Of a stretch of DNA of 44,238 nt, positions 8,355-32,872 are shown piece after piece (positions within the stretch are counted from its first letter, which is position 1; each line of letters begins with the position of its first letter). This DNA is from Geobacteraceae bacterium GWC2_53_11 (GTDB lineage: Bacteria; Desulfobacterota; Desulfuromonadia; Geobacterales; Pseudopelobacteraceae), in assembly GCA_001802645.1 (NCBI GenBank), contig MGZJ01000075.1, positions 1 to 44,238 of the forward strand, given 5' to 3'. The notes under the pieces are model-generated. The model was not told the origin of the DNA. It did not search any database and saw only the letters and a list, made by a program, of their open reading frames with translations. A program made the position numbers and the translations under genes.

Positions 8355-8355
8355 A

Positions 8356-9318: not shown

Positions 9319-9319
9319 G

Positions 9320-10503: not shown

Positions 10504-10701
10504 AAATGCAACAAAAATTTACAAACCTTCCTCCTGGTAGAGAATGTCTGGGGAGATGGTTCTCGATTGCCTTGCACGTCCGATGTTGATTAATCCCCAT
10601 CAAGACTTCCGGATGCAAAGTGATTTATAAAAACAGGTGTTGTCACTCACAGGTACGTCTATTTCTTGTAAGTTTTCACAGTTTAATATAAGTATAAGTG
10701 T

Positions 10702-10792: not shown

Positions 10793-12319
10793 CAATTGAT
10801 TTCTACAGATAACATTCACAACATTTCAGAAGTTCTTCGCAAACTTTCACAACCTGTCCGGATCACCTCCGCGGGACCGGCCAATGCCCCTTGTGACGTT
10901 TACGTCCCCCCGCTGCTTCCGGAACAACTCGGCGACCGGGCGTTCTGTCGTGAGATAGGGATCCGCTATCCTTATCTTGGCGGTTCCATGGCCAAGGGAA
11001 TCAGCTCTGTTGCCATGGCAGAGGAGCTTGGACGCGCCGGCATGCTCGGCTTCTTCGGCGCAGCCGGACTGCCGTTTGCCGCTGTGGAAGCAGCCGTTGA
11101 CAAGCTGGCGGGTGCCGGTTTTCCGTGCGGTTTCAACCTGATACATTCACCCCACGAGCCTGATCTGGAGGCCGCCCTTGCCGAGCTGTACATCCGCAAG
11201 AATGTTTGCCTGGTGGAGGCATCCGCATTTCTGGCCCTGACGCTGCCGCTGGTCCGCTATCGTACCCACGGCATCCATCGCACAGCAGACGGAACGATCA
11301 TCGCTCCGAACCGGATTATTGCCAAGGTATCGCGAGAAGAACTGGCCGAAAAATTCTTCTCTCCGCCGCCGGAAAAACTCCTGCGCCAGCTCCTGAACGA
11401 CGGTGCCATCACTACCGAACAGGCTGAGTTGGCCGCGCAGATACCAATGGCACAGGAAGTCACTGCCGAAGCAGATTCAGGCGGACATACCGACAACCGG
11501 CCCGCTATCGCCCTGTTTCCGACCATTTTATCTCTGGCTGGCCGGATGGAACAGAAATTCGGCTATGGCGTCAAGCTGCGGGTCGGACTGGCTGGCGGCA
11601 TTGCCACACCGACCGCTGCTGCCGCTGCGTTTGCCATGGGAGCTGCCTACATCATGACCGGTTCTGTCAACCAGGCCTGCATCGAATCCGGAACGTCGGA
11701 TGCGGTACGCCGGATGCTGGCGGAAACGCGGCAGGCCGATGTGACCATGGCTCCGGCCGCGGACATGTTCGAAATGGGCGTTACGGTGCAGGTATTGAAG
11801 CGCGGCACCATGTTCCCGATGCGGGCAGCAAAACTGTATGACATGTATCGCAGCCATGACGGGCTTGAAGGCATTCCGGGCCCTGAACGGGATAAACTTG
11901 AAAAAACTTTGTTTCTGGCTCCGCTCACCGATATCTGGCGCGACACCCGGACCTTTTTCCTTGAGCGCGATCCCCGTCAGGTAGAACGTGCCGAACGGGA
12001 TCCGAAGCACCTCATGGCGCTCGTGTTTCGCTGGTACCTGGGTCAGGCCGCCCACTGGGCCAAGGATGGCGCTGCGACCCGCACAATGGACTACCAGGTC
12101 TGGTGCGGACCGGCCATGGGAGCTTTCAATGAATGGGCCGCCGGCAGCTTTCTGGCGGTTCCGGAGCAACGCCGGGTAGCGACGGTTGCCCGCAATCTTC
12201 TGTTTGGAGCGGCTCTGCTCACCCGTGCCAACATGCTCCGTTACCAGGACATAAAACTTCCCGACGATTTCCGTATCGAACCGCTTGAAGACATACACAT
12301 CAAGGAGTACCTCGCGTGA
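10793..12319 (+). CDS. pfaD: PfaD-type trans-acting enoyl reductase of PUFA synthase
   Basis: This 508-residue FMN-dependent reductase of the 2-nitropropane dioxygenase/PfaD family acts in trans on the ACP-bound enoyl chain of the polyunsaturated fatty acid synthase. It sets which double bonds are kept. Family marks are RYPYLGGSMAKGISS near the N-terminus, GGHTDNRP, the flavin-phosphate loop GLAGGIATPTAAAAAFAMGAAYIMTG, and the C-terminal MDYQVWCGPAMGAFNEW. The start is uncertain: I chose TTG 10793, with GAG nine bases upstream, over TTG 10769 and a GTG at 10637, because earlier residues look like translated AT-rich leader. It is first in the operon, as pfa1 is in myxobacteria, and overlaps the next gene by four bases (GTGA). 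Confidence 0.88.
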   Translation, partial: QLISTDNIHNISEVLRKLSQPVRITSAGPANAPCDVYVPPLLPEQLGDRAFCREIGIRYPYLGGSMAKGISSVAMAEELGRAGMLGFFGAAGLPFAAVEAAVDKLAGAGFPCGFNLIHSPHEPDLEAALAELYIRKNVCLVEASAFLALTLPLVRYRTHGIHRTADGTIIAPNRIIAKVSREELAEKFFSPPPEKLLRQLLNDGAITTEQAELAAQIPMAQEVTAEADSGGHTDNRPAIALFPTILSLAGRMEQKFGYGVKLRVGLAGGIATPTAAAAAFAMGAAYIMTGSVNQACIESGTSDAVRRMLAETRQADVTMAPAADMFEMGVTVQVLKRGTMFPMRAAKLYDMYRSHDGLEGIPGPERDKLEKTLFLAPLTDIWRDTRTFFLERDPRQVERAERDPKHLMALVFRWYLGQAAHWAKDGAATRTMDYQVWCGPAMGAFNEWAAGSFLAVPEQRRVATVARNLLFGAALLTRANMLRYQDIKLPDDFRIEPLEDIHIKEYLA

Positions 12320-15300
12320 CACAGGACACTACCAATCGGACCACCGCACCCAGCGCCCCACCGCTGGCCATCATAGGAATCGGCTGCCTCTTCCCCCAAG
12401 CCGAAGACAGCACCACGTACTGGGCCAATATTCGCGAGGGGATCGACGCCATCAGCGACATCCCGGCAACCCACTGGCACGTGGCTGACTACCATAATCA
12501 GGACCCCAAGGCGCCCGACATGACCTACGGCCGCCGGGGCGGATTTCTGTCCGAAGTTCCTTTCAATCCGATGGAATACAACATCCCTCCTGCTACCCTG
12601 GAGGCGATTGACAGTTCGCAGCTTTTAGGACTGGTCGCCACCGGACAGGCGCTGAAGGATGCCGGTTATGGCGCCGACCGGAGCTATGACCGCGACCGGG
12701 TGAGCGTCATCCTTGGTGTTACCGGTACGCTCGAACTGGTTATCCCGCTGGCTGCGCGTCTCGGACATCCCCATTGGCGGTCGGCCCTCAAGGACGCCGG
12801 TGTGGACGACACTACCTCTGAAGACGTTGTGCAGCGCATCTCCGATTCGTATGTATCCTGGCAGGAAAATTCCTTTCCCGGCCTGCTCGGCAACGTGGTA
12901 GCCGGCAGGATCAGCAAGCAATTCGATCTGGGCGGCACCAACTGCGTGGTGGATGCCGCCTGCGGCAGTTCGCTTGGCGCCCTGCATGTGGCCGCCATGG
13001 AACTGGCAACCGGCAAGTCAGACATGGTTGTCACCGGCGGAATCGATACGTTCAACGACATCTTCATGTATATGTGCTTCAGCAAGACCCCGGCGCTGTC
13101 ACCAAGCGGAGATGTAAAACCGTTCGACGCCTCCGGCGACGGCACCATCATTGGTGAAGGGCTCGGCATCATGGTTATCAAGCGGCTTGCCGATGCGGAA
13201 CGTGACGGCGACCGGATTTATGCGGTAATTCGCGGCGTCGGTTCCTCCAGCGACGGCAAGGGCGAGGCGATCTATACCCCCAGCGCCTCAGGCCAGAGAA
13301 AAGCCATCAAGGACGCCTATCAGCGTGCCGGAGTGACTCCGGACAGTATCGGCCTGGTAGAAGCCCACGGCACCGGCACCAAGGTCGGTGACGCGGTTGA
13401 AGTATCGGCATTGCGCGAGATCTATGGCACATCCGACAAACCTTGGTGCGCCCTCGGTTCGGTCAAGTCGCAGATCGGCCACACCAAAGCAGCCGCAGGT
13501 TCCGCCGGGATGATCAAGGCTGCCCTGGCGCTGCACCACAAAGTCATTCCACCCACTATCAAGGTACAACAGCCGTTGCGCGAGGTTGTGGACGGACAGT
13601 CCCCCTTCTACCTCACCAGCCACAAACGTCCCTGGCTTTCCCGCAACGGTCAGCCGCGCCGCGCCGCAGTAAGCGCCCTCGGTTTCGGCGGTTCAAACTT
13701 TCATGTAGTACTTGAAGAATACACCCCGACTGCCGCCATGGCGGACTGGGATGGCACCGTCCAGATTCTCCCTTTCTCCGCTGCCGATACAGCCGCACTG
13801 GAGCAGATGGTTGCCGGAGTTGCCGACCTGCACAGCGGGAAGGAAATCCGCGCCAGGGGTGCTGAGCTCCGCTCCTCCTTCGACGGGAATGCTCCGTGCC
13901 GCCTGGCGCTGGTCGTCGAACAGAAATCCAACCTGAAATCACTCTGCACCAACGCGCTGACCATGCTGCGCAAGCAGCCGGACTCCGCCTGGAGCACTCC
14001 CGATGGCGCCTGGTATGCAACCGGAGCCGCACCGGGCAAAATCGGCGTGCTGTTCCCCGGCCAGGGTGCCCAATATACCGGGATGCTGCGCGATCTCGCC
14101 TGCAGTTTTCCCGCCATGCTGGCTGCCCTTGACGCTGCGGACCGGGAATTTGGCACAGACACCGGCAGCAGCCTGTCCGACCTGATCTACCCCCCTACCG
14201 CCTTCAGTGACGCCGACCGGGAAGTTTTGGAAGCTGCCTTGCGCGCCACCGACGTTGCCCAACCCGCCATCGGGGCGGTCAGTCTCGGTGCCTTGCGTAT
14301 TCTGGAATCATTCGGTTTTGCGCCGGATGCCGCTGCCGGTCACAGCTATGGGGAGCTTACCGCCCTGTGCGCTGCCGGTCGGCTTGATGAAACTTCATTC
14401 CATGCCCTGTCCCGCCTGCGCGGCCAGTTGATGGCAGCCGGAGACGGCGACCGGGGTACCATGCTGGCTGTGTCCGCACCGTTGGCCGATGTGCAACAGT
14501 TGATCAGCGAGGAAAAACTTGATCTGGTCATAGCCAACCGTAACGCGCCGAACCAGGCGGTTCTTTCCGGCAGCAGCGCCGAGATTGCCCGCGCCGCCGA
14601 GGCCTGTGCCTCCCGCAAACTTTCCTGCAAGCAATTGACCGTTTCTGCGGCATTTCACAGTCCGCTGGTTGCCGATGCCGCTGCCCCGCTGCTGGCTGCC
14701 CTGTCCGGCATCACCATTGCTGATGGATCACTGCCGGTTTACGCAAACACAACTGCGGCCGAATACCCGTCTGAGGCTGGGGCAGCCGCCACGCTGCTGG
14801 CCGGGCAACTGGCCCGGCCGGTCGAATTTGTTGCCGAAATAGAAGCCATGTATGCCGCCGGTATCCGTACCTTTGTGGAGATCGGTCCGGGAGCCCGCCT
14901 TTCAGGTCTGGTGTCCGCCATACTTGCCGGTCGTCCGCATACCGCTATCGCACTTGATGCGTCCGGCGGCAGACGATCCGGGGTTGCCGATCTGGCGCGC
15001 TGCCTGGCGCAGCTGGCCGTACTTGGCCACACCGTTTCCCTGACCGGGTGGGATGAAGGGTATCGCCCCGCGCCGCAGGCCACTGGCAAAAAACCGGCTC
15101 TGACCATAAACCTGAGCGGCGCCAATTATGTCAAACCGAAGGCAAAGCGGCCTGCATCCCCTCCCCGTCCGGCCGTAACGGTTGCCGTTGCCGCACCTTA
15201 TTCCCCGCATGCTGGCATGACGGCTGTATCACCAGTTGGTCTACAGACGGCTCCATCCACAGTATCTCGCGACGTCCTGGCCGAGTCACTGAAGGTCACT

Positions 15301-18300
15301 CGTGAAGGAATGTCGGCTCTTACGCGGATTCAGGATGAGACCGCCCAGCTTCACCGCCGCTTTCTGGAAGGGCAGGATACCGCTGCAAAGACCATCCAGA
15401 TGCTGCTCGAACAGCAGCAGCGGATTCTTCAGGGGGGCACTGCCGTTCAATCACCCATATCGTTTCCCGCATCTGCTTCAGCTCCGGTCATTACTCCGTC
15501 AGCAGTTCCGGCGTTCGTGCCACCAGCAGTTACATCAGCTGTGCCGTCTGTTCCGGTTGTTCAGCCGAAGTCAGATCGTGTTGCCGAAACCCTGCTTGCG
15601 GTAGTCAGTGAGAAGACCGGCTATCCGGTAGAAATGCTGGAGATGGAAATGGGGCTCGACTCAGACCTCGGCATCGATTCCATCAAACGGGTCGAGATCC
15701 TGTCTGCACTCCAGGAACGCCTCCCCGGTTCGCCGGTCATCGGACCCGAGCATCTGGGCACCCTGCATACCCTTGGTGAAATAGCCTCCTTTCTGGGCGC
15801 AGGATCAGTAGCCACGTCACCTGCCGTCAACTCATTGAACTCAACGAGCTCCCCTCTCATCGCCGAAACCCTGCTGGCTGTGGTCAGCGAGAAAACCGGC
15901 TATCCGGTAGAGATGCTGGAGATGGAGATGTGGCTCGATTCTGACCTCGGCATTGACTCCATCAAACGGGTCGAAATCCTGTCAGCCCTACAGGAACGGC
16001 TCCCCGGCTCTCCGGTCATCGGGCCGGAGCATCTGGGCACCCTGCACACCCTCGGCGAAATCGCAACTTTTCTGGGCGCAGGAACAGCCGCCGCACAACC
16101 TGCCGTCAACTCATTGAACTCTACAAACTCAATGAACTCCATAAACTCGCCCCTCATCTCCGAAACCCTCCTTGCCGTCGTCAGCGAGAAAACCGGCTAT
16201 CCGGTAGAGATGCTGGAGATGGAGATGGGGCTCGACTCAGACCTTGGTATCGATTCCATCAAGCGGGTCGAAATTCTGTCCGCACTCCAGGAGCGCCTTC
16301 CGGGTTCGCCGGTTATCGGTCCCGAACATCTGGGCACCCTGCACACCCTGGGAGAAATAGCAGCCCATCTGGGCGCAGGTGCTGCTCCGGTGGATATCCC
16401 TTCTGACCGGCCAGACACGTCAGACCAGTCAGACAAAATTGCCAAGACCCTCCTTGCCGTCGTCAGTGACAAAACCGGCTATCCGGTAGAGATGCTGGAA
16501 ATGGAGATGGGGCTTGAATCCGATCTCGGCATCGATTCAATCAAACGGGTCGAAATTCTGTCCGCACTTCAGGAACGTCTCCCCGGTTCACCGGTCATCG
16601 GCCCCGAACACCTGGGTACCCTGCATACCCTGGGAGAAATAGCCTCTTATCTGGGCAACGGTACGGTAGCCGCGCAACCTGCTGTTGTCTCAACAAACCC
16701 AACAAACTCAACAAGCTCCATCCAGGTCAACCGAAGTACCATTGTACCGGTTCAGCTTACCGAACCGGCCCGTAAACTGCCACTGGCTGGCGCGGGCGCA
16801 CTGTGGATTACGGACGATGGATCGGATTTTTCCACCGAACTGTGTGCCAAGTTACGTGTTCAGGGACGTTCCGTTCAACTGGTTCGTATTGAAGACGCTT
16901 TTATGAATGCCTCTGGGGCGGACCTTGCCGGTCTGGTAATTTGCGCTCCTTCAGGTGGAACCGATGATAATTTTTACGAAAATGCCTTCCTGCTCCTGAA
17001 AAGCTCTGCGCCGAGTCTGCGCAGATCAGGAGAAAACGGAGGCGCCCTGTTTGCTACCATTTCCCGCCAGGACGGTTCATTCGGCTGCGGGACTGATACA
17101 ATTCTGAATGACCCGCTCTCCGGCGGCCTTGCCGGTCTGACTAAGACAGCGGCCCATGAATGGAGCGAGGTGTCGTGCAAAGCGATTGATGTGGGACTAT
17201 TTGCCGACCATTCCGCTGAGGCAGAAGCTGTTGCGATTGAACTGCTGCTTGACGGCCCGCTTGAAGTCGGTCTGACCCCTTCAGGCAGAACCGCCTTGCA
17301 CACAATTGACCTTCCACAACAGCCGCAAACTGGCACCGTACCGTTACAGGCAGGGGATGTTGTCGTAATCACCGGAGGTGGACGCGGAGTGACGGCTGCT
17401 GCTGCCGTAGCACTGGCAGCTGCGTACAAGCCGTTACTGATTCTGCTGGGACGCAGCCAGGAATTTCAGACAGAACCGGAGTGGCTGGCACCGTTGCAGG
17501 AGGAAAGCCAGATAAAACGCGCCATTCTTGAGCATACTACAGAGAAGCTTCACCCGAGAGAAATTGAGGAACGATACCGGGCAATTGCAGCCGGGCGGGA
17601 ACTTAAGGAAACACTGGCCAGGATCTCACAGGCAGGCGGCCGGGCGCTCTACCGTTCCGTCGATATTCGTGACACTGCCGCCGTATCCTCCCTGCTGGCT
17701 GAAATCCGCCAGGAGTATGGGCCTGTCCGCGGCATAGTGCATGGCGCCGGAGTATTGGCTGACCGGCTCATCAGCGATAAGTCCCTGGAACAGTTCACCT
17801 TGGTGTACGACACCAAGGTCAAGGGTTTAAAGGCATTGCTTGCCGCTACCGCGCAGGACGACCTGCGCTTTATCGCCCTGTTTTCCTCCACAACAGGCCG
17901 TTTTGGCCGAAGCGGCCAGGTTGATTATGCCGTTGCCAACGAAGTGCTCAACAAGCTGGCCCAGGCCGAGTCACGCCACCGTTCAACATGCCGGACCGTC
18001 AGCATTAACTGGGGACCGTGGGATGGCGGCATGGTTACCCCATCGCTGAAAAAGGTTTTTGAAGGCGAAGGGATCGGCCTGATCGGACTGAAAGAAGGTG
18101 GAGAACTCCTGGTACGCGAGATCGCTGCCACCGGTGATCCGGTAGAAATCATCGCCCTGGCCGGAGTGTCTGCCGCTTCGCTGGCAATCTCCCCGACGCT
18201 TCCGGAGACACCGCTCACCGAAGCTTTCCGCCTGAACCTGACCGTTGAGGATTTCCCCTTCATCCGTTCCCACGTGATCGACGGCAAAGCCGTCCTTCCC

Positions 18301-22000: not shown

Positions 22001-25000
22001 CAACCTCTCCGATCTGGCATCCGCCTGGTATCCAAACTTTGCGGCAGCCGCCGGTACAGCACGTGCCATGGCCATGGTTGCCCGGGATCGCGATGAACTG
22101 GCTCTGTTGATTGATCTCGGACGAGCCACTTTGAAGAATAACGGCGCTATTCCTGCCATTCCACCGGGTCTGCGCGACCGGCTGTTCTATTCAGCGTCAC
22201 CTCTGGGAACAACAGGAAAAGTAGCGTTTGTCTTTCCCGGTTCCGGCAACCACTATGCGGGGATGGGGATGGATCTGTTCAGCCGCTGGCCGGGAATCCT
22301 GCGCCGCCAGGACGGTGAAAACCTTTTACTGCGGGCGCAGTTCCAGCCGGAACTGTTCTGGAACGACGCACCACCAGCCCTGATCAATGACGACCATCGG
22401 GCCGTTATTTTCGGACAGGTAGCCACCGGCTGCGCGGTCAGCGACCTTGTCCAGCGCTTTGACGTCCACCCGGATGCGGTTATCGGCTACAGCCTTGGTG
22501 AGTCGGCGGGGCTTTTTTCACAACGGGCGTGGCGTGACCGGGATGGCATGTATGGGCGCATGAAGGACTCGACCCTGTTTACGGATGATCTGGCCGGAGA
22601 ATGCCGCGCCGCCAAACAGGCCTGGGGACTGGCAGACGATGCGACCGTAAACTGGGGACTCGGAGTAATCGCGGCCCCGGAGCTGACTGTCCGGGCGGCG
22701 TTGCCGGAATTTCCCCGCACCTATCTCCTTATCGTCAACACTCCCGATGAATGCGTCATCGGCGGTGATGCTGACGAACTCGCACGGCTGGTGACAACGC
22801 TCGGCTGCCGGTTTTTCCCGCTGCATGGCGTGACCACGGTGCATTGCGCGGTGGCGGAGCAGGTGGCAACCCCATATCACGACCTGCATCTCTACCCTAC
22901 GGAAGCACCGGCAGGTATCATCTATTACAGCGGCGTCAAAGGCGATTCCTACGATGTCACCCGCGAAAGCGCCGCTGCCTCGATCCTCGGCCAGGCGCTG
23001 CACGGCCTCAACTACCCGCAGGTGATTGAATCGGCCTATCGCGACGGCGTCCGCCTGTTTCTGGAGATGGGACCCGGCGCATCATGCAGCCGCATGATCG
23101 GTCGCATCCTCAGTGACCGTCCGCATCTGGCCCGCTCCGCCTGTTTTGCCGGTCAGGATCAAGTCTCCGTCGTGCTGAAGATGATGGCCAATCTGATCGC
23201 CGAACGGGTGCCGGTTGACCTGTCGCCGTTATTTGATGTGCCGCGCGTAGCCGTTGCTGACAAAACAGCAACCGGAACGGTACGTGTTGTACTTGGCGGC
23301 GCGCCGTTTCAGCCGCCGCAGCCACCTGTTGCGACAGTGATGAAGAAACCTGTTCCCGTTCAGAATGTGGCGGTACCATCGGTAGTTACGGCCACCGTTC
23401 CCGCTCCTGCCCCTCTTGGTGAAAGCGCCCGTGACTCGCTGATAGGCGAACTGGCCCGTTCGCAGCAGACCCACACGGAAGCCCATGCGGCGTTTCTTGC
23501 CGTCAGCGAGACCGTGACCCGGTCCATGGCGCAAGCGCTTGAGCTGGAGATGTCACTGCGGCAGGCGCTGGGGGATGATGTTCCCTTCGACTCCGCTCAG
23601 GGAACGGTTAGTTCCGTTCAGGAAACGGTTGGTGAGCGTAGTCGAACCACCTTCAACCGTGAGATGTGTTTCGAATTCGCAATCGGTTCGGCCGGTCTCA
23701 TGCTGGGTCGCGAGTTTGCCGAGGTGGATACCTTCCCGACCCGTGTCCGGCTGCCGGACGAGCCGCTCATGCTGGTGGACCGCATCATGAGCGTCGAAGG
23801 TGAACCGCGCTCCATGACCCATGGCAGGGTTGTTACCGAACATGACATTCATCCGGGCGCCTGGTATCTGGACGGCGGCCGCATCCCCACCTGTATCGCC
23901 GTGGAAGCCGGTCAGGCCGACCTATTCCTGTCCGGCTACCTCGGTATCGACTTTATCACCCGGGGTCTGGCGGTGTACCGCCTGCTCGACGCCGTGGTCA
24001 CGTTCCATCGCGGCCTGCCCGGACCGGGCGAGACGATCCATTACGACATCCGTATCGAGCGGTTCTTCCGGCAGGGTGATACCTGGCTGTTCCGCTTCTT
24101 CTTCGAGGCCACGGTAAACGGCCAGCCGCTGCTGTCCATGCGTGACGGCTGCGCCGGGTTCTTCAGCCAGCAGGAACTTGACGCGGGCAAGGGTATTGTT
24201 CGTCCGGCGCTGGATCTGCGTCCCACGACCGGCATCCGACCGGCTGACTGGCAGGATCTGGTGCCGCTGGCGCGCGAAGGTTACAGTGCGTCACAACTTG
24301 ATAAGTTACGCGACGGTGATCTGGCTGGCTGCTTCGGTCCGATGTTCGCCGGGTTGTCGCTGTCCCGCCCGCTGACCATTCCAGGTGACAGGATGCGCCT
24401 CGTCCATCGCGTCATCGAAATTGATCCAGCGGGCGGACGCTGCGGTATCGGCATCATCAGGGCCGAAGCCGACATCCACCCGGACGACTGGTTTATCACC
24501 TGTCATTTCGTCGATGACCGGGTCATGCCGGGCACCCTGATGTATGAGTGCTGCATGCACACGCTCCGCATCTACCTGCTGCGACTGGGCTGGGTAGCCG
24601 AAGCTGCCGGTTCCGTCTGGGAGCCGGTGCCGGGCGTGGCAAGCAAGCTCTGCTGCCGGGGCCAGGTTCTGGAAAGCACCAAGGTCGTTACCTACGAGGT
24701 AACTATCCGCGAAATCGGCTACAGCCCTGAGCCGTACGTGATCTGCGACGCCCTCATGTATGCCGACGGCAAGCCGATTGTCGAGATCACCAGCATGTCG
24801 GCGCGCCTGACCGGTACGACCAGGGAACAGTTGCAGGCCCTCTGGTCCTCAACCTCCCCTGTTCAACCGGTAACAGACCTGAGCAAGGCAAAACCGGCCA
24901 TCTACACCAAGGAACAGATCCTTGCCTACAGCAACGGCAAGCCATCCGAAGGCTTTGGCGACCGCTACCGCGTGTTCGACGCCGAACGCAAAATTGCCCG

Positions 25001-25973
25001 CCTCCCTGGGCCGCCGTTCCAGTTCATGGATCGCGTCACGAGCGTGCGCGGCGAGCCGTGGCAGATGACCGCCGGTGCCATGGTTGAGGCGCAGTATGAC
25101 CTGCCTGCCGACGCCTGGTTCTTTGCCGCCGAGCGTCAGCCGCGCATGCCGTTTTGCGTGCTGCTGGAAGCGGCGCTGCAACCGTGCGGCTGGCTGGCTG
25201 CCTATGTGGGGTCGGCGCTGACCACCCCGAACGATATCTCCTTCCGCAACCTGGGTGGCAGCGCCGTGCAGCACCGTGCTGTCACGCCGGAGAGCGGTAT
25301 GCTGACCTGCTGCGCCACCATGACCAAGGTTGCCACCAGCGGCGGCATGATCATCCAGGAGTTCGACTTTTCTGTCGCCGACCGCCACGGCATTCTCTAT
25401 GAAGGCGATACCATGTTCGGCTTCTTTGCCAAGGAAGCGCTGGCCAACCAGGTCGGCATTCGTGACGCGAAACCGTACGAGCCGACAGCGGATGAGTTAG
25501 AGCGGGGCCGCGCCCTCTCCTATCCGGATTCAGCTCCGTTCCCGGAAAAGAAACTGGCGATGATCGACCTGATCGACCTGTTCGTGCCTGACGGCGGCCC
25601 AAAAGGGCTCGGCTACATTCGTGGCATCAAAGATGTCGATCCGGATGAATGGTTCTTCAAGGCGCACTTTTACGAGGACCCGGTCACGCCCGGCTCACTG
25701 GGGCTGGAATCATTCCTCCAACTGGTGAAGTTTGTTGCCGTGGAACGGTGGGGCTGGCAGGATGGCGAGATTGTCTCGGCTGTGGCGCTTGAGCACAAAC
25801 ACCGCTGGCTCTACCGCGGCCAGGTAGTGCCTACCAACAGCCGTGTGACGGTGAGCGCCTGGATCACCGCCGTTGATGATCAAAAGCGGATTTTGACCGT
25901 GGATGGCTTCCTGTCCGTGGATGGAAAGTTAATCTATCAGATGAATGATTTCACCGTAACTATGGAGTTATAA
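19098..25973 (+). CDS. pfaC: PfaC-type polyunsaturated fatty acid synthase, KS-CLF-AT-DH-DH
   Basis: This is a 2291-residue synthase. Domains: an active ketosynthase (about 5-445; Cys193 in AACASS, His327, His367); a second ketosynthase fold (about 468-920) whose Cys position is Glu668 (ISSEENSG), hence a chain-length factor; an acyltransferase (about 1040-1345) with FPGSGNHYAGMG and Ser1132 in GYSLGES, resembling the PfaB/OrfB AT; a helical linker (about 1443-1492); then two FabA-like double-hotdog dehydratases with CHFVDDRVMPG (His1803) and AHFYEDPVTPG (His2190). Standard marine PfaC lacks the AT, which is on separate PfaB; this order matches myxobacterial Pfa3, minus its C-terminal acyltransferase for glycerol phosphate. 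ATG 19098 overlaps the previous stop by one base. Two palindromic repeats are translated in linkers near residues 450-468 and 1496-1518. Confidence 0.94.
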   Translation: MTDYRSTVAIVGIGGIFPDAPDLTVFWDNISTGRTAFREVPEGRWMVPADSVYDPEPGKADCVYSRRGCFINRLPSAATLPDLAIDPALLDGLDPLFHLLIHAGKRAFDDGVTAPLDRSRVGIIIGNLALPSETSAVLTRNWLGRTFEEQLLGSASPPSPTSPLNRFPAGLPAGILARALGLGGGGCTLDAACASSLYALKLAMDELLSGRADAMLSGGVSRPDPLFTQMGFSQLRALSKRGVCSPFDAAGDGLVVGEGAGLFLLKRTEDAVVHGDRIYGVIRGIGLANDVGGSLLAPMSEGQLRAMRSAYLQAGWQPGDVDLIECHATGTPVGDAVEVASLKQLWSGVERDATRCVIGSVKSNIGHLLTAAGGAALTKVLLALQNETLPPTANFNTPQTGMELDNSPFRVLTSAAPWQRRGDGIPRRAAVSAFGFGGINAHLLIEEWLPSAPLRDRLKDRLVSGVEPIAVIGMDARFGPWQSLRAFQERVLGGDDTAAPTTPKAWHGASQSKWFRAEGLDTTPFSGFTMDDVTVPSNRFRIPPREMEEMLPQQLLMLQTAAEALHNAGFDRDSSASTGVFIGIALDLNSTNFSLRWALSGQASHWAQKLGRELTTEELSEWTSLLRNAAGPSLTANRTMGALGSVVASRIAREFRIGGPSFTISSEENSGIRALEAAIRQLQNRELDQALVGAVDLAGDLRAVLGQHGVRPYSRSGIATPFDSAADGAVFGEGACAVVLKRLEDAERDGDRIYAVIRGIGSVSGAPVAAGEETYRHALDKAYADAKVDRASIGFIEASADGTPEQDLGEAAALASWFASDTAPARSCAVSSVKGDIGHSGAASGLASLLRGCLALYHEIIPGCRGLAAAGPSLPEQSPLHFPRSSRYWLRNREDGPRRAGVSVRGIDGSCSHVVLEGYDMAQPGIELDRCAPLGAGSEALFAIAGDTTSELLTQLDLFEDMTRDSSANLSDLASAWYPNFAAAAGTARAMAMVARDRDELALLIDLGRATLKNNGAIPAIPPGLRDRLFYSASPLGTTGKVAFVFPGSGNHYAGMGMDLFSRWPGILRRQDGENLLLRAQFQPELFWNDAPPALINDDHRAVIFGQVATGCAVSDLVQRFDVHPDAVIGYSLGESAGLFSQRAWRDRDGMYGRMKDSTLFTDDLAGECRAAKQAWGLADDATVNWGLGVIAAPELTVRAALPEFPRTYLLIVNTPDECVIGGDADELARLVTTLGCRFFPLHGVTTVHCAVAEQVATPYHDLHLYPTEAPAGIIYYSGVKGDSYDVTRESAAASILGQALHGLNYPQVIESAYRDGVRLFLEMGPGASCSRMIGRILSDRPHLARSACFAGQDQVSVVLKMMANLIAERVPVDLSPLFDVPRVAVADKTATGTVRVVLGGAPFQPPQPPVATVMKKPVPVQNVAVPSVVTATVPAPAPLGESARDSLIGELARSQQTHTEAHAAFLAVSETVTRSMAQALELEMSLRQALGDDVPFDSAQGTVSSVQETVGERSRTTFNREMCFEFAIGSAGLMLGREFAEVDTFPTRVRLPDEPLMLVDRIMSVEGEPRSMTHGRVVTEHDIHPGAWYLDGGRIPTCIAVEAGQADLFLSGYLGIDFITRGLAVYRLLDAVVTFHRGLPGPGETIHYDIRIERFFRQGDTWLFRFFFEATVNGQPLLSMRDGCAGFFSQQELDAGKGIVRPALDLRPTTGIRPADWQDLVPLAREGYSASQLDKLRDGDLAGCFGPMFAGLSLSRPLTIPGDRMRLVHRVIEIDPAGGRCGIGIIRAEADIHPDDWFITCHFVDDRVMPGTLMYECCMHTLRIYLLRLGWVAEAAGSVWEPVPGVASKLCCRGQVLESTKVVTYEVTIREIGYSPEPYVICDALMYADGKPIVEITSMSARLTGTTREQLQALWSSTSPVQPVTDLSKAKPAIYTKEQILAYSNGKPSEGFGDRYRVFDAERKIARLPGPPFQFMDRVTSVRGEPWQMTAGAMVEAQYDLPADAWFFAAERQPRMPFCVLLEAALQPCGWLAAYVGSALTTPNDISFRNLGGSAVQHRAVTPESGMLTCCATMTKVATSGGMIIQEFDFSVADRHGILYEGDTMFGFFAKEALANQVGIRDAKPYEPTADELERGRALSYPDSAPFPEKKLAMIDLIDLFVPDGGPKGLGYIRGIKDVDPDEWFFKAHFYEDPVTPGSLGLESFLQLVKFVAVERWGWQDGEIVSAVALEHKHRWLYRGQVVPTNSRVTVSAWITAVDDQKRILTVDGFLSVDGKLIYQMNDFTVTMEL
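20444..20502. repeat. Palindromic repeat translated inside pfaC (KS-CLF linker)
   Basis: The left arm CCTTCGGCTCCGCTCAGG at 20445-20462 and the right arm TGGTGAGCGGAGTCGAACC (20482-20500) are inverted copies sharing TTCGRCTCCGCTCA, with about 20 bases between. The element is read in frame and contributes the linker just before the CLF domain. Confidence 0.8.
23583..23650. repeat. Palindromic repeat translated inside pfaC (AT-DH linker)
   Basis: CCCTTCGACTCCGCTCAGGG at 23583 and TGGTGAGCGTAGTCGAACC ending near 23648 form the same inverted-repeat element as at 20444-20502. It is read as PFDSAQGT...GERSRTT just before the first hotdog domain. The two inner ACGGTTRGT/AAACGGTTGG segments look duplicated. 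Confidence 0.82.
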
Positions 25974-25975
25974 AT

Positions 25976-27019
25976 ATGAAGTATCGAAAAGTCACCATAG
26001 AGGCTCTTGGCTATGAACTGGCACCGGTCGTCGTCACCACCGCAGAACTGGAGGCCCGTTTGGAGCCCCTGTACAAATATCTGCGCATTGTGCCGGGACA
26101 ATTACAGGCACTGACCGGTATCAGGGAACGCCGCTGGTGGGAGCCGGGATATCCGCTTTCCCATGGCGCCATTGCCGCTGCCCGTAAAGTGATGCTTTCC
26201 TCCGGCGTTACCGCTGACGATATCGGCGCACTGATCTATGCCGGTGTCTGCCGTGAACAGTTCGAGCCGGCCACCGCCTGCCGCGTGGCAGCAGGACTTG
26301 GTATCGGCGGCAAGACCGCCGTGTTCGACCTTTCCAATGCCTGCCTCGGTGTACTGAACGGCATTCTTGACGTGGCCAACCGGATCGAATTGGGACAGAT
26401 CAAGGCTGGTCTGGTAGTCTCCTGCGAGAGCGCTCGCGAGATCAACGAAATCATGATTACCCGGATGCTGGAAGAACGGACAATGCAGCATTTTGCCGCC
26501 TCTCTGGCGACCCTGACCGGCGGTTCCGGCGCCGTGGCAGTCCTGCTGACCGACGGCTCCTTCTCGGGCGCCACGCGCAGGCAGTTGCTGGGCGGCATTA
26601 CCCAGACCGCGCCGGAACACCACCGGCTCTGCCTCTGGGGTGTCACGCCGGACGGCAAGGGTGGCTATGTCCAGTCCATGTCAACGGATGGCGTCAATGT
26701 CATGAATTACGGCGTCGAGCTGGGTCGGCGAACCTGGGAGGAATTTCTGCCGCAGGTCGGCTGGAAAACCGAGGACGTTGACCAGGTGGTCTGCCATCAG
26801 GTCGGCTCCGCCCACCAGAGCGCGATTCTGAAATCGCTCGACATACCAGCGGAAAAAGACTTTACCACTTACGAATATCTGGGCAACATGGGCACCGTGT
26901 CCCTGCCGCTCACCGCAGCCATCGCCGACGAACGGGATATACTGGAAGCAGGCGACAAGGTGGCGTTTCTGGGAATCGGCAGCGGTCTGAACTGCCTGAT
27001 GCTGGGGATGGAATGGTAA
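25976..27019 (+). CDS. oleA: OleA, acyl-CoA:acyl-CoA head-to-head condensing thiolase
   Basis: The 347-residue FabH-like member of the thiolase superfamily joins two fatty acyl chains by non-decarboxylative Claisen condensation to a 2-alkyl-3-oxoacyl product. The catalytic triad is visible: Cys123 in NACLGVLNG, His274 in CHQVGSAHQ and Asn304 in YLGNMGTVSLP. The ERRWWEPGYPLS segment and SGVTADDIGALIYAGVCRE are typical of OleA rather than FabH. It starts two bases after the pfaC stop with GGAG upstream, and overlaps oleB by seven bases. In Shewanella OleA uses Pfa-derived polyunsaturated chains to make a C31 nonaene; here the genes are in one operon, so the same use is likely. Confidence 0.93.
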   Translation: MKYRKVTIEALGYELAPVVVTTAELEARLEPLYKYLRIVPGQLQALTGIRERRWWEPGYPLSHGAIAAARKVMLSSGVTADDIGALIYAGVCREQFEPATACRVAAGLGIGGKTAVFDLSNACLGVLNGILDVANRIELGQIKAGLVVSCESAREINEIMITRMLEERTMQHFAASLATLTGGSGAVAVLLTDGSFSGATRRQLLGGITQTAPEHHRLCLWGVTPDGKGGYVQSMSTDGVNVMNYGVELGRRTWEEFLPQVGWKTEDVDQVVCHQVGSAHQSAILKSLDIPAEKDFTTYEYLGNMGTVSLPLTAAIADERDILEAGDKVAFLGIGSGLNCLMLGMEW

Positions 27020-27930
27020 ACAGCGCACTGACAAAAGAATATCCGTTCACCGGTAAACGCCTTGATCTTGACGGCCCTTCGACTTCGCTCAGGGCAGGCC
27101 TCTCCTACCATTACCTGGATGAGGGTACCGGCGCGCCGGTGGTGATGGTGCACGGCAACCCGTCCTGGTCGTTCTATTACCGCAACCTGGTGCTGGCGCT
27201 GCGCGACCGGTACCGCTGCATCGTGCCCGACCATATCGGCTGCGGCCTGTCCGACAAACCGGGCGATGATCGCTACGACTACACCCTCTCCCGCCGCGTC
27301 GATGATCTGGAGCGTTTGCTTGACACGCTTGGAGTTACGGAGAACATCACCCTTGTTGTTCACGACTGGGGCGGCATGATCGGCATGGCCTATGCCGTAC
27401 GCCACCCGGAGCGGATCGTACGTCTGGTGATTCTCAATACCGGCGCGTTCCATCTGCCAAAAACGAAGCCGTTTCCGCTCGGCCTGCGTATCTGCCGTGA
27501 CACGGTACTCGGCACACTGCTGGTGCGCGGCTTCAATGCCTTCAGCGCCGGTGCGTCATATGTGGGGTGCAAGCGCAACCCGATGACCCCGGAACTGCGC
27601 GACCTCTACCAGTATCCATACAATTCCTGGCAGAACCGCATTGCCACGCTCCGCTTCGTGCAGGACATTCCGCTCTCTCCCGGCGACCGAGGCTATGAAC
27701 TGGTCAGCGCCGTTTCAGACGGCATCGGCCAATTCAGCAACCTGCCGATGCTCATATGCTGGGGCGAGCTGGATTTTGTCTTTGACCGGCATTTCCTGGC
27801 TGAATGGCAGCAGCGGTTCCCCCATTCGGAAATCCACCGCTATCCGGATTGCGGACACTATATCCTTGAAGACGCCAAAGAGGAGATCGTGCCGTTGATC
27901 TCCGGGTTTCTTGACCGGACGGAGCTGTAA
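27013..27930 (+). CDS. oleB: OleB, alpha/beta-hydrolase beta-lactone decarboxylase
   Basis: The 305-residue alpha/beta-hydrolase related to haloalkane dehalogenases decarboxylates the beta-lactone made by OleC to a cis-olefin. Visible are the oxyanion motif HGNPSWSFYYRN, nucleophile Asp118 in VVHDWGGM, WGELDFVFD with the acid, and His282 in DCGHYILED. The ATG at 27013 lies within the end of oleA behind GGGGATGGA. Residues about 21-30 (GPSTSLRAGL) are encoded by half of a palindromic repeat inserted in frame between two N-terminal beta strands; relatives normally run straight from LDL to HYLDEG. The core fold is intact, so the enzyme is probably active. OleB, OleC and OleD form a large complex in Xanthomonas. 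Confidence 0.92.
   Translation: MVNSALTKEYPFTGKRLDLDGPSTSLRAGLSYHYLDEGTGAPVVMVHGNPSWSFYYRNLVLALRDRYRCIVPDHIGCGLSDKPGDDRYDYTLSRRVDDLERLLDTLGVTENITLVVHDWGGMIGMAYAVRHPERIVRLVILNTGAFHLPKTKPFPLGLRICRDTVLGTLLVRGFNAFSAGASYVGCKRNPMTPELRDLYQYPYNSWQNRIATLRFVQDIPLSPGDRGYELVSAVSDGIGQFSNLPMLICWGELDFVFDRHFLAEWQQRFPHSEIHRYPDCGHYILEDAKEEIVPLISGFLDRTEL
27074..27100. repeat. Palindromic repeat (half element) translated near the N-terminus of oleB
   Basis: CCCTTCGACTTCGCTCAGGG at 27075-27094 is one arm of the element found twice in pfaC. It is followed by CAGGCC, and GCCCT/AGGGC pairs its ends. It adds about nine residues to OleB without a frameshift. Confidence 0.75.
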
Positions 27931-27933
27931 GCA

Positions 27934-29571
27934 ATGGTTGCAAGCGACATCGTCAACATCTCCCGCCCCCTGACCGAAATGGCCCGGCTCCAGCCGGATA
28001 CGCCCGCCATCATCTTTCCGCAGGAAAAACGTTCACTGACTTTTCGTGAACTGGATCAGGAGAGCGACCGGATTGCAGACGGACTGGGGCGGATCGGCAT
28101 TGGCCGCGGCACCAGGGTGGCACTGCTGGTCCCACCCTCCCCGGAACTGTTTGCCCTGACCTTTGCCCTGTTCAAGGCCGGGTCCGTGCCGGTGTTCATA
28201 GATCCGGGCATTGGAGCACGCAATATGAAAGGATGCCTGGCCGAGGCGGAGCCGGTGGCGTTCATCGGCATTCCCAAGGCGCATGTGGCCCGGCGGCTGC
28301 TCGGCTGGGGACGCGGCAGCATCCGCATCAATGTTGTCGTTGGTGGCGGTTCCTTCTGGGGCGGCGTGCCGCTTGATGAAGTGCGACGTTCCGCGCAACC
28401 GGCACCGTTTGTGGCGGCGAACACCCTCCGTGATGATGTGGCTGCCATCCTGTTTACCAGCGGCAGCACCGGCGCACCCAAAGGCGCGATCTACAGCCAT
28501 GGCACCTTTGCGGCCCAGGTCGAGGCCTTGCGGGAGCTCTACGATATCCGCCCCGGCGAAATAGACCTGCCGACGTTCCCGCTCTTTGCCCTGTTTGCTC
28601 CGGCCCTCGGCATGACCGCCCTGATTCCGCAGATGGATTTCACCCGCCCCGGTTCAGTCGATCCCCGCAAAATACTCGGCCCGGCAGCTGAATATTCCGC
28701 CACCACCATGTTCGGCTCCCCGGCCCTGCTGAACCGGGTCGGCCGCTTCGGTGAGTCTCACGGAAGCATGTTTCCCCATATCAAACGGGTCATTTCCGCC
28801 GGGGCTCCGGTTCCGGCCTCGGTATTGAAACGCTTTGCCGCGCTGCTGCCCGATGATGCCGAAATTTTCACCCCCTACGGCGCCACCGAAGCGCTGCCGG
28901 TCAGTTCCATCGGCAGCCGCGAGATCCTGGCCGAAACCGGTGCGATGACCGGCGAGGGGCATGGCGTCTGTGTCGGCTACCCGGTCGCGAGCATATCGCT
29001 TGCCATAATTCCGGTCAGCGATGCACCGATCGACGAATGGAGTGACGACCTGTCGCTCCCTCCCCTGGAAGTTGGTGAAATTGCCGTATGCGGACCGCAA
29101 GTCAGCCGCGCCTACCTGAACCGACCCGAGGCGACCAGAATGGCGAAAATACCGGATGCCGACGGCACTATCTGGCATCGCATGGGCGATGTCGGCTACC
29201 GGGACAAGAGCGGCCGGATCTGGTTCTGTGGCCGCAAGTCCCACCGGGTGGTGACCTCCGGGGAAACCCTCTACACAATTCCGGTGGAAGGGGTGTTCAA
29301 CACCCATCCGGCAGTGTTCCGGACTGCGCTGGTCGGCGTGGGCATGTTGGGCAGCCAGCAGCCGGTGCTCTGCGTGGAGCTGGAGAAAAAGGCCGGAAAG
29401 CCTGAACAGGAGCGGATACGTCAGGAACTCCTTGAACTCGGCAGCCGCTATCCCCACACCCGAGGCATCCGCACAATCCTCTTTCACCCGGCATTTCCGG
29501 TCGATATCCGGCACAATGCCAAGATTTTCCGCGAAAAGCTGGCAATCTGGGCCAGGGATGCACGGTCATGA
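27934..29571 (+). CDS. oleC: OleC, ATP-dependent beta-lactone synthetase
   Basis: The 545-residue member of the ANL (acyl-CoA synthetase) superfamily adenylates the 2-alkyl-3-hydroxy acid and closes it to a beta-lactone, without using CoA. The ATP loop FTSGSTGAPKG, the TPYGATEALP motif and the hinge GDVGYRDKSGRIWFCGR are present. RALIVG-like free-standing CoA motifs are not obvious, as expected for OleC. It starts three bases after oleB, with GGAG upstream, and overlaps oleD by four bases (ATGA). Its place between oleB and oleD is the standard oleABCD order. Confidence 0.93.
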   Translation: MVASDIVNISRPLTEMARLQPDTPAIIFPQEKRSLTFRELDQESDRIADGLGRIGIGRGTRVALLVPPSPELFALTFALFKAGSVPVFIDPGIGARNMKGCLAEAEPVAFIGIPKAHVARRLLGWGRGSIRINVVVGGGSFWGGVPLDEVRRSAQPAPFVAANTLRDDVAAILFTSGSTGAPKGAIYSHGTFAAQVEALRELYDIRPGEIDLPTFPLFALFAPALGMTALIPQMDFTRPGSVDPRKILGPAAEYSATTMFGSPALLNRVGRFGESHGSMFPHIKRVISAGAPVPASVLKRFAALLPDDAEIFTPYGATEALPVSSIGSREILAETGAMTGEGHGVCVGYPVASISLAIIPVSDAPIDEWSDDLSLPPLEVGEIAVCGPQVSRAYLNRPEATRMAKIPDADGTIWHRMGDVGYRDKSGRIWFCGRKSHRVVTSGETLYTIPVEGVFNTHPAVFRTALVGVGMLGSQQPVLCVELEKKAGKPEQERIRQELLELGSRYPHTRGIRTILFHPAFPVDIRHNAKIFREKLAIWARDARS

Positions 29572-30563
29572 AAGTTCTGGTTACGGGAGGCGGCGGGTTT
29601 CTCGGCAGCACGATTGTACGGATGCTGCGCGAACGGGGCGATGAGGTGCGCAGCTTTTCACGAGGCGAATACCCTGCCCTGGCGGCGCTCGGTGTCGAGC
29701 AGATCAGAGGAAGTCTGGAAGATCGTGACGCTGTCGTTGCGGCGGCAAGGGGATGCGACCTGGTATTTCATGTCGCCGCCAAAGCCGGTATCTGGGGAAG
29801 TTACCACGATTTCTACCAGGCCAACGTGGCCGGCACCGGACATGTCATCGCCGCCTGCCTGAGCAACGGCATCAGCAGACTGGTCTACACCAGCTCTCCC
29901 AGCGTCGTCTTCGACGGCAGCGATGTGGAAGGGGGCAACGAGTCTCTCCCCTACCCGGAGTTTTATGAAGCCAACTACCCGGCCACCAAGGCACTGGCCG
30001 AGCAACTGGCGCTGGCAGCCAACTCGCCAGAGCTGGCAGTAACAGCCCTGCGCCCGCATCTGATCTGGGGCCCCGGCGACAACCATCTGGGACCGCGCAT
30101 CATCGCCAAAGGGCGCGCCGGAAAACTGCGCCGCATCGGTAGCCGTCCCAACCTGGTGGACACGGTGTATGTAGACAATGCCGCCCGCGCCCATCTCCAG
30201 GCCGCGGATATGCTTTCTCCCGGCAGCAGCGTGGCGGGAAAGTGCTATTTCATCAGCAATGGCGAGCCGTTACCGCTCTGGGACATGGTAAACCGTATCC
30301 TCGCCGCCGCAGATGTCCCACCGGTAACCCGCAGCATTTCGCCGAAACTGGCCTTCGCCATCGGCTGCATCTGCGAGGGAATCTGGAGCCTGTTCCGGCT
30401 TTCCGGCGACCCCCCCATGACCCGCTTTGTCGCCCACGAGCTTGCCACTTCCCACTGGTTCGATATCAGCGCCGCCCGGCGCGACTTCGGCTACACCCCC
30501 GAGATTTCCATCGACGAAGGTTTAGTGCGGCTGCGCCGGTCGCTGCAAAATCCCCCTGCATGA
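29568..30563 (+). CDS. oleD: OleD, NADPH-dependent 2-alkyl-3-oxoalkanoate reductase
   Basis: The 331-residue extended short-chain dehydrogenase/epimerase reduces the OleA product, 2-alkyl-3-oxoacid, to the 3-hydroxy acid used by OleC. The Rossmann motif GGGGFLGSTIV is at residues 7-17, the catalytic Ser lies in VYTSSPSVVFDG, and YPATK is the YxxxK pair. The C-terminal part resembles the 3-beta-hydroxysteroid dehydrogenase family to which OleD belongs. ATGA overlaps join it to oleC before and the PPTase gene after, so all are co-translated. Confidence 0.92.
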   Translation: MKVLVTGGGGFLGSTIVRMLRERGDEVRSFSRGEYPALAALGVEQIRGSLEDRDAVVAAARGCDLVFHVAAKAGIWGSYHDFYQANVAGTGHVIAACLSNGISRLVYTSSPSVVFDGSDVEGGNESLPYPEFYEANYPATKALAEQLALAANSPELAVTALRPHLIWGPGDNHLGPRIIAKGRAGKLRRIGSRPNLVDTVYVDNAARAHLQAADMLSPGSSVAGKCYFISNGEPLPLWDMVNRILAAADVPPVTRSISPKLAFAIGCICEGIWSLFRLSGDPPMTRFVAHELATSHWFDISAARRDFGYTPEISIDEGLVRLRRSLQNPPA

Positions 30564-31291
30564 AACCATCTCCTCTGCCGCTTGACGGCGAAGTGCACCT
30601 GTATTGCCTGAACCTGCCGCACGATGCCTCCAAGCTGACCGGTTATGGATGTCTTCTTTCTGAAGCGGAAACGAAACGGGCGGGTTTACTGAAAAGTGAG
30701 CTGGTTACAAGCCGCTTTATTGCCGGACGGGGAATACTGCGTACCATACTGGGCGCGTATCTCGATGTTGACCCTGCAGACGTGAAGCTTGCCACGGGAG
30801 AACACGGCAAACCGTACCTTGCGGATGGTACGAAGGATCTTCGTTTCAACCTGTCACACGTGGATGATCTGCTGGTTCTGGCCGTTGCCGCCGGTTTAGA
30901 GGTGGGTATTGATATTGAGAAAATTGCAGCAGGCAAACCTGTTCATGATATTGCTCGTTTGGCGTTTTCCCGGCAGGAGCAGGAAGTGCTGCTTGCCATG
31001 CCTGCGTCACGGCAGATCCAGGCTTTTTACCGCTGTTGGGTCCTCAAGGAAGCCTGTCTGAAAGCCTGCGGCAGCGGGTTTTCTTTACCAGGCAGCAGTT
31101 TTGATATGCCGTTGATTTTTGAGCCAATGGTGAAACTCATTAACTGCAATCAGACGTTCTGGCATGTCCGGGATATTGAGGTGCCCGAAAAATACTGCGC
31201 CGCGCTGGCAGTTGAAGCACGCGGTGGTTCTCCGTCTCTACCAGAAATTGTTTGGTGTGTTCCGAATGGAAAACTGGCTGATAACACCTGA
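30560..31291 (+). CDS. Sfp/PfaE-type 4'-phosphopantetheinyl transferase
   Basis: The 243-residue pseudodimeric PPTase moves phosphopantetheine from CoA to the ACP serines of the PfaA-type protein. Marks are FIAGRGILRTILG, GKPYL, FNLSHVDDL, the magnesium-binding VGIDIEKI and WVLKEACLKACG. The frame is open further upstream, but ATG 30560 gives family length and an ATGA overlap with oleD. It takes the role of Shewanella pfaE although its sequence reads as general Sfp-type. Being last in the operon it would make the cluster self-sufficient for ACP activation. An inverted repeat across its stop codon may end the operon. Confidence 0.92.
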   Translation: MKPSPLPLDGEVHLYCLNLPHDASKLTGYGCLLSEAETKRAGLLKSELVTSRFIAGRGILRTILGAYLDVDPADVKLATGEHGKPYLADGTKDLRFNLSHVDDLLVLAVAAGLEVGIDIEKIAAGKPVHDIARLAFSRQEQEVLLAMPASRQIQAFYRCWVLKEACLKACGSGFSLPGSSFDMPLIFEPMVKLINCNQTFWHVRDIEVPEKYCAALAVEARGGSPSLPEIVWCVPNGKLADNT

Positions 31292-31305
31292 AGCATCTTA
31301 TCAGC
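31277..31305. terminator. Hairpin shared by two convergent stop codons
   Basis: GCTGATAA at 31277-31284 and TTATCAGC at 31298-31305 form an 8-bp stem with a 13-base loop. It spans the PPTase stop (31289-31291) and the response-regulator stop (complement of 31301-31303), which are nine bases apart. There is no clear T-run on either side, so intrinsic termination would be weak. It could limit convergent transcription. Confidence 0.4.
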
Positions 31306-32824: not shown

Positions 32825-32872
32825 GGATTCCTCCCCTCCGACAACCTTCCCTCATCTTCACCCTTCACCCTT

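Follow-up and report, generated by a model that had tools for sequence, protein, structure and literature searches.

The window analysed here, the whole 44,238-nucleotide stretch of Geobacteraceae bacterium GWC2_53_11, is part of contig C75 of a draft genome of 4.28 Mb and very probably carries the Geobacterales version of an operon already known, the Type I pfa-ole operon; its product would be a long polyene hydrocarbon, most likely C31:9. Judged from its sequence, the operon is an ordinary Geobacterales member of a cluster type that has been described, and its arrangement is known. We name C31:9 as the most likely product because the same row occurs in Geobacter (Geomonas) bemidjiensis, for which C31:9 is the reported hydrocarbon. 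The result confirms and widens a known route, the oxygen-independent synthesis of polyene hydrocarbons.

Eight genes, pfaD-pfaA-pfaC-oleA-oleB-oleC-oleD-PPTase, lie in tandem on the forward strand at 10796-31291 (Table 1). All eight frames are open, each with a single, terminal stop, and their successive spacings are -4 (GTGA), -1, +2, -7, +3, -4 (ATGA) and -4 (ATGA) bases. A preliminary description of this DNA had noted overlaps or gaps of at most three bases throughout, and the frame coordinates bear it out with spacings of -7 to +3. Two of its details need correction: pfaA and pfaC, said there to be one base apart, overlap by one base (TGATG), and the start placed at 10793 falls on CAA, which is no start codon, the TTG sitting at 10796. 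The pfaD frame opens further upstream, with a GTG at 10637. The same description read the row as one operon; gene structure supports that reading, and a single transcript for the eight genes is likely. Nor is this a chance arrangement: six relatives (L140, L141 and L149-L152) show the row from pfaD through oleD as one continuous stretch, and most of 80 further loci have parts of it.

Table 1. Genes and repeat array of the pfa-ole operon in the window.
Feature	Position	Strand	Basis
pfaD, enoyl reductase, 507 aa	10796..12319	+	TIGR02814; TTG start at 10796, exact start uncertain
pfaA: KS, MAT, four ACPs, KR, PS-DH	12316..19098	+	TIGR02813, Pfam, motifs
Tandem array of four ACP coding repeats, period ~279 bases	15583..16656	+	Repeat scan, DNA identity
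pfaC (pfaBC fusion): KS, CLF, PfaB-type AT, four FabA-like hot-dogs (DH2)	19098..25973	+	Pfam, TIGR02816, motifs
oleA, head-to-head thiolase	25976..27019	+	NF006720, alignment, conservation, model
oleB, alpha/beta hydrolase, putative beta-lactone decarboxylase	27013..27930	+	Family matches, HDWGG/GHYI motifs
oleC, AMP-binding beta-lactone synthetase type	27934..29571	+	NF006754; NF045786 below cut-off
oleD, 2-alkyl-3-oxoalkanoate reductase type	29568..30563	+	NF042422 below cut-off; motifs
PPTase (pfaE equivalent), 243 aa, 4'-phosphopantetheinyl transferase for ACPs	30560..31291	+	PF01648

The family matches and domains of PfaD, PfaA and PfaC agree with the earlier claim that the PUFA synthase is complete. 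PfaD scores 605 bits against TIGR02814 (cut-off 449) and PfaA 1722 bits against TIGR02813 (cut-off 1010); for pfaD, as for the PPTase gene, the profile scan used the longer open frame. PfaA has the domain order KS-MAT-4xACP-KR-PSDH, with DAACGSS (KS) at residue 213, GHSYGE (MAT) at residue 675 and the ACP motif LGIDSIKR at residues 1118, 1211, 1310 and 1404. At the DNA level the ACP repeats are 82-87% identical to one another across 180-base pieces, and this tandem array (15583-16656) is a possible reason for contig breaks within pfaA of draft genomes. PfaC is ordered KS-CLF-AT-DH2: the KS is of the active type, the CLF lacks the active-site Cys, DH2 gives four FabA matches, and the PfaB-type AT that is fused in keeps its Ser motif (GYSLGE at residue 1130), with the PfaB model TIGR02816 reaching 115 bits on this stretch, short of the 144.3 set as its cut-off. 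Outside the operon the genome has just one FabA/FabZ-type dehydratase match. The pfaBC fusion (KS-CLF-AT-DH2), together with a PfaA with several ACPs and a PfaD, fits Type I rather than canonical Types A and B, which have a separate pfaB gene; here the AT sits within pfaC.

OleA scores 496 bits against NF006720 (cut-off 285) and is 91% identical to the protein of Pelotalea chapellei and up to 95% identical to those of metagenome-assembled Geobacter-titled genomes, values that agree with a Geobacterales host. It shares 34% identity with X. campestris OleA, for which mutant structures name C143, H285 and E117; in the window protein, which was aligned to it, the catalytic residues are Cys123, His274 and Glu97, and all three are unchanged in every one of 110 aligned OleA rows. 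The best PDB match of the predicted model (mean pLDDT 94.7) is again X. campestris OleA, with a TM of 0.93. OleB is by sequence an alpha/beta hydrolase of the haloalkane-dehalogenase type, with HDWGG at 117 and GHYI at 281, which we take to be its catalytic residues, and its presence points to an olefin rather than a beta-lactone as the end product. OleC matches NF006754 with 734 bits (cut-off 478). Against the strict olefin families, both OleC (678 of 900 bits for NF045786, 633 of 850 for another) and OleD (474 of 580 for NF042422, 416 of 580 for another) fall below the cut-offs, but olefin families are still among their best matches, and OleD carries the motifs GGGGFLG and YPATK. The operon PPTase matches PF01648 with 59.7 bits (cut-off 25) and is one of two PPTase-family matches in the genome, the other being a 157-codon frame on contig C5; the proposal that the operon brings its own ACP-activating enzyme is supported.

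In the route that we propose, the PPTase would arm the four ACPs of PfaA, and PfaA, PfaC and PfaD would make a polyunsaturated acyl chain without oxygen. OleA would join two such chains head to head, probably taken from the ACPs; OleD would then reduce the OleA product, OleC would close the beta-lactone and OleB would remove CO2, leaving a long-chain polyene hydrocarbon, for which C31:9, the reported G. bemidjiensis product, is the likeliest identity. The Ole and Pfa chemistry is drawn from work on Shewanella and Xanthomonas proteins.

The preliminary description had set the row against Shewanella, where the two systems lie at separate loci, a contrast that makes the arrangement look new. The same row is, however, in print for G. 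bemidjiensis, whose tandem genes are given as pfaD, A, B, C, oleA-D and pfaE, along with a C31:9 hydrocarbon (Yoshida 2016, PMC4882568). The C31:9 of this species also appears in PMC3098273, and both papers cite Sukovich 2010 for it. The two rows are alike in gene order, including the terminal PPTase, and presumably belong to the same order of taxa; they come from different genomes, and in the review pfaB has an entry of its own, whereas the window AT is fused in pfaC. Linkage to ole genes was likewise reported in 2011, when Shulse and Allen (PMC3098273) described the Type I pfa-like cluster, with its pfaBC fusion, from Deltaproteobacteria and a planctomycete, called ole genes "often linked" to it and proposed that Type I feeds olefin synthesis. 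Compared with that cluster as set out in the available text, the window shows no essential difference in domain architecture or gene content.

Shewanella and Photobacterium also have a PUFA synthase (pfaABCDE) feeding the OleA of oleABCD, but with a separate pfaB and with the operons apart or, in Photobacterium profundum, adjacent with pfaT between them (PMC6463001). None of the eight operon genes in the window is a pfaT. In Shewanella one synthase is reported to supply both EPA and the C31:9 hydrocarbon, and EPA also enters phospholipid (PMC6463001). Direct passage of acyl chains from ACP to OleA, which the preliminary description suggested, had already been proposed for Shewanella from co-expression in an E. 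coli fadD mutant (Allemann 2019, PMC6463001), and operon linkage alone does not demonstrate it. The myxobacterial pfa1-pfa2-pfa3 cluster shares the order pfaD-pfaA-pfaC, the PS-DH on PfaA and the AT in PfaC, but its Pfa3 ends in an AGPAT domain reported to generate phosphatidic acid (PMC8436480), whereas a Pfam scan of the window PfaC found no AGPAT domain and oleABCD follows.

Conservation of the gene order was followed in 80 contig loci, a sample fetched by similarity to the window OleA and hence biased, with pfaD beyond its reach. The loci nearest by OleA bear Geobacter or Desulfuromonad titles and those further away Planctomycetota, Verrucomicrobiota, Acidobacteriota and Elusimicrobia titles; by record title we split them into 61 Geobacter, Desulfuromonad or Delta loci and 19 others. 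In the first group pfaC adjoins oleA in 53 of 59 testable loci, and in the others in 13 of 18, while oleB adjoins oleA wherever this could be tested (58/58 and 19/19). Of the testable loci, 27 of 55 in the first group and 16 of 18 in the others have oleC next to oleB. Given oleC, oleD follows it in 24 of 25 loci of the first group and 9 of 12 of the others; given both, so does the PPTase in 18 of 24 and 2 of 8, counts made by tblastn, which may miss some of these rapidly diverging proteins. These adjacencies make pfaC-oleA-oleB the steadier core, and the low figure for oleC beside oleB in the first group shows the eight-gene form of the window to be one arrangement among several.

Sixteen first-group loci lack oleC and 12 have it at a distance; the genomes behind 13 of the former and 3 of the latter were searched, and all 16 have an oleC, in some of them on the same contig. 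In many Geobacterales (L037, L038, L042, L045, L047, L049, L056, L072, L084 and others) oleC-oleD, with or without the PPTase, stands apart from pfaC-oleA-oleB, either because unrelated genes intervene or because it sits elsewhere in the genome. In a genome of the window's own family (G098; L143, L123), pfaD-pfaA-pfaC-oleA is kept, but oleB begins about 10 kb after oleA. Some relatives have other genes inserted between oleB and oleC or following oleB, and ten of the encoded proteins were considered as possible pathway members; eight belong to unrelated families (GGDEF, pyridine nucleotide-disulphide oxidoreductase, beta-eliminating lyase, MFS, ClpB-type AAA, PurT-type ATP-grasp, DUF2442 and PIN) and two to none, and we read them as signs of rearrangement rather than as pathway genes. 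In two Geomonas species (L078, L080) the cluster is present from pfaA through the PPTase gene. Loci with Planctomycetota, Verrucomicrobia and Elusimicrobia titles also have rows that run from pfaA to oleD, reaching a PPTase in two (L100, L110).

Co-occurrence was examined with the PfaD and OleA family models at E 1e-60. Across 141 genomes of the order, PfaD was found in 95 and OleA in 91, with both in 90, PfaD alone in 5, OleA alone in 1 and neither in 45; in other words, the two occur together in 90 of the 96 genomes that have either, and OleA is present in 90 of the 95 that bear pfaD. In 66 of these 90 the two share a strand and a contig, with pfaD 12.9-15.3 kb ahead of oleA, and in the other 24 they are on different contigs. 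Ten of the split genomes were opened: pfaC lies directly 5' of oleA in nine, so that a contig ending within the cluster is the simplest account of the separation in these, and in the tenth (G310) a pfaC stretch lies about 10 kb from oleA. The five pfaD genomes in which OleA went undetected have listed completeness of 99% (G308, G377), 95% (G404), 85% (G417) and 66% (G392). A sample of 297 genomes of the phylum gave PfaD over its cut-off in 24 and OleA in 31 (both 19, PfaD alone 5, OleA alone 12), and for the 289 genomes outside the window's own order the figures are 12 with both, 5 and 12 with PfaD or OleA alone and 260 with neither. Fisher values computed for the co-occurrence take no account of how closely the genomes are related. 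The two genes are linked in 9 of the 19; in the remaining 10 they are on other contigs or, in G161, more than 1 Mb apart. Because 5 of 24 PfaD genomes are without OleA and 12 of 31 OleA genomes are without PfaD, neither strictly needs the other at the scale of the phylum. The Sulfidibacter corallicola genome (that of L108) has five PfaD-family matches, one of them in a 15,393-codon open frame.

The window OleA carries a Trp-Gly pair (Trp221) predicted to lie in a hairpin with strands at 219-225 and 231-237; at this site the alignment gives X. campestris OleA a nine-residue gap and no Trp. Within the phylum sample the pair is present in 15 of 19 OleAs from PfaD genomes versus 0 of 11 from pfaD-less genomes (11 of 12 such proteins were examined, G219 being left out). 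The four OleAs of PfaD genomes that lack it (G036, G275, G241, G262) make up a separate OleA branch, and the PfaC-like protein of G262 has no AT domain in Pfam. In a tree of 53 OleA rows, including 23 of the 80 contig loci, the 38 motif-bearing rows form one clade (SH-aLRT 100), and the 11 examined proteins from pfaD-less genomes fall outside this clade, to which the window OleA belongs; the columns of the trait were retained, so that the single change counted on the tree is not independent of the trait. Trp-Gly occurs in all 80 contig loci, one of the six patterns used to find them having included the Trp. Eleven loci have no pfaC beside a motif-bearing oleA, and PfaD was over its cut-off in 10 of 10 of their genomes tested. 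Over the whole PfaD check, 12 of 13 genomes passed the cut-off, the exception being a Gemmataceae MAG (L107) with a pfaC fragment beside oleA. This distribution fits a lineage of OleA fed by Pfa, and common descent alone predicts the same pattern.

The preliminary description suggested that the synthase serves hydrocarbon, not phospholipid, synthesis. The positive half of this statement is favoured by the relatives, through the C31:9 of G. bemidjiensis, the fatty acids of Geomonas and the joint presence of PfaD and OleA in 90 of 96 genomes, and by the missing AGPAT domain. However, given the dual use seen in Shewanella and the five pfaD genomes in which no OleA was detected, "not phospholipid" is something that we infer. 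The synthase might also release PUFA into phospholipid, through the fused AT or a thioesterase elsewhere, with OleA intercepting a part as in Shewanella. We regard this as improbable, though worth keeping in mind: the intact Ser motif of the PfaC AT makes release as a free acid possible, one synthase serves both ends in Shewanella (PMC6463001), and two of the genomes with PfaD and undetected OleA (5 of 95 in the order) are listed as 99% complete. Weighing against such a division of the product are the absence of AGPAT from PfaC, the near-complete co-occurrence of PfaD and OleA in the order, and the available fatty-acid table of three Geomonas strains at 30 C, which has no resolved polyunsaturated acid, although one unresolved feature of 0.2-0.9% may hold C18:2 (PMC8516083), these strains being different from those whose cluster was seen (L078, L080).

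If the product is a hydrocarbon, it could still be one other than C31:9, with Pfa making a chain of different length or with fewer double bonds, or with OleA pairing a Pfa chain with one from type II FAS. Chain length is unreadable from sequence, and the PS-DH on PfaA and the AT on PfaC are unlike Type A; we nevertheless think a different product unlikely, as C31:9 is the hydrocarbon reported for a relative that shares the gene row (PMC4882568). That pfa and ole merely adjoin by chance, OleA using ordinary type II FAS acyl groups, strikes us as highly improbable. OleA does occur without pfaD in 12 of the 31 OleA genomes of the phylum sample, but the 11 of these proteins examined stand outside the clade of the window OleA, the frames of the operon overlap, and the linkage is kept in many genomes. 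The reading that we favour is that of a Pfa synthase feeding OleA for the synthesis of a long polyene hydrocarbon.

Going beyond this reading, we tentatively hypothesize, and consider it rather doubtful at this point, that the W221 Trp-Gly hairpin and its accompanying residues mark OleAs that take polyunsaturated chains from Pfa ACPs, and that OleA is the main or only step of chain release in Type I systems. Such a role in release would explain why pfaC-oleA-oleB mostly stay together while oleC-oleD-PPTase wanders. The Trp-Gly region (OleA residues 219-237) is a possible partner-specificity element. If the hypothesis is true, the marker would predict makers of polyene hydrocarbons from genomes, and a sequence-marked OleA clade would make the choice of ACP-bound chain by OleA testable. 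The literature searched, including the available text of PMC7064751, contains no mention that we found of a Trp-Gly marker in OleA.

A scan of 12300-31500, from the last bases of pfaD to just past the PPTase gene, gave three sigma-70-like sites, none of them on the forward strand, where 5.6 would be expected for the two strands together; terminator-like sites number 12 against 16.1 expected, again counting both strands. As for regulation, the nearest sigma-54-like match has two mismatches, and an Rfam scan of the window returned nothing at gathering score. An FNR-like site with one mismatch lies at 10590-10603, upstream of pfaD. FNR control of the operon was considered and set aside, as the upstream stretches of 19 other loci hold no site with fewer than two mismatches, a weak test in which minus-strand loci were left unturned. 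Downstream, a sigma-54 (NtrC-type) response regulator and a GAF histidine kinase are encoded convergently on the reverse strand at 31301-34549, with nine bases between the end of the regulator gene and the PPTase gene; as partners of the operon they were rejected, the 80 loci giving just scattered matches and no conserved linkage. Upstream, the reverse strand at 7167-10375 encodes E1 alpha, E1 beta and E2 of a 2-oxoacid dehydrogenase complex, divergent from pfaD across a gap of 420 bases.
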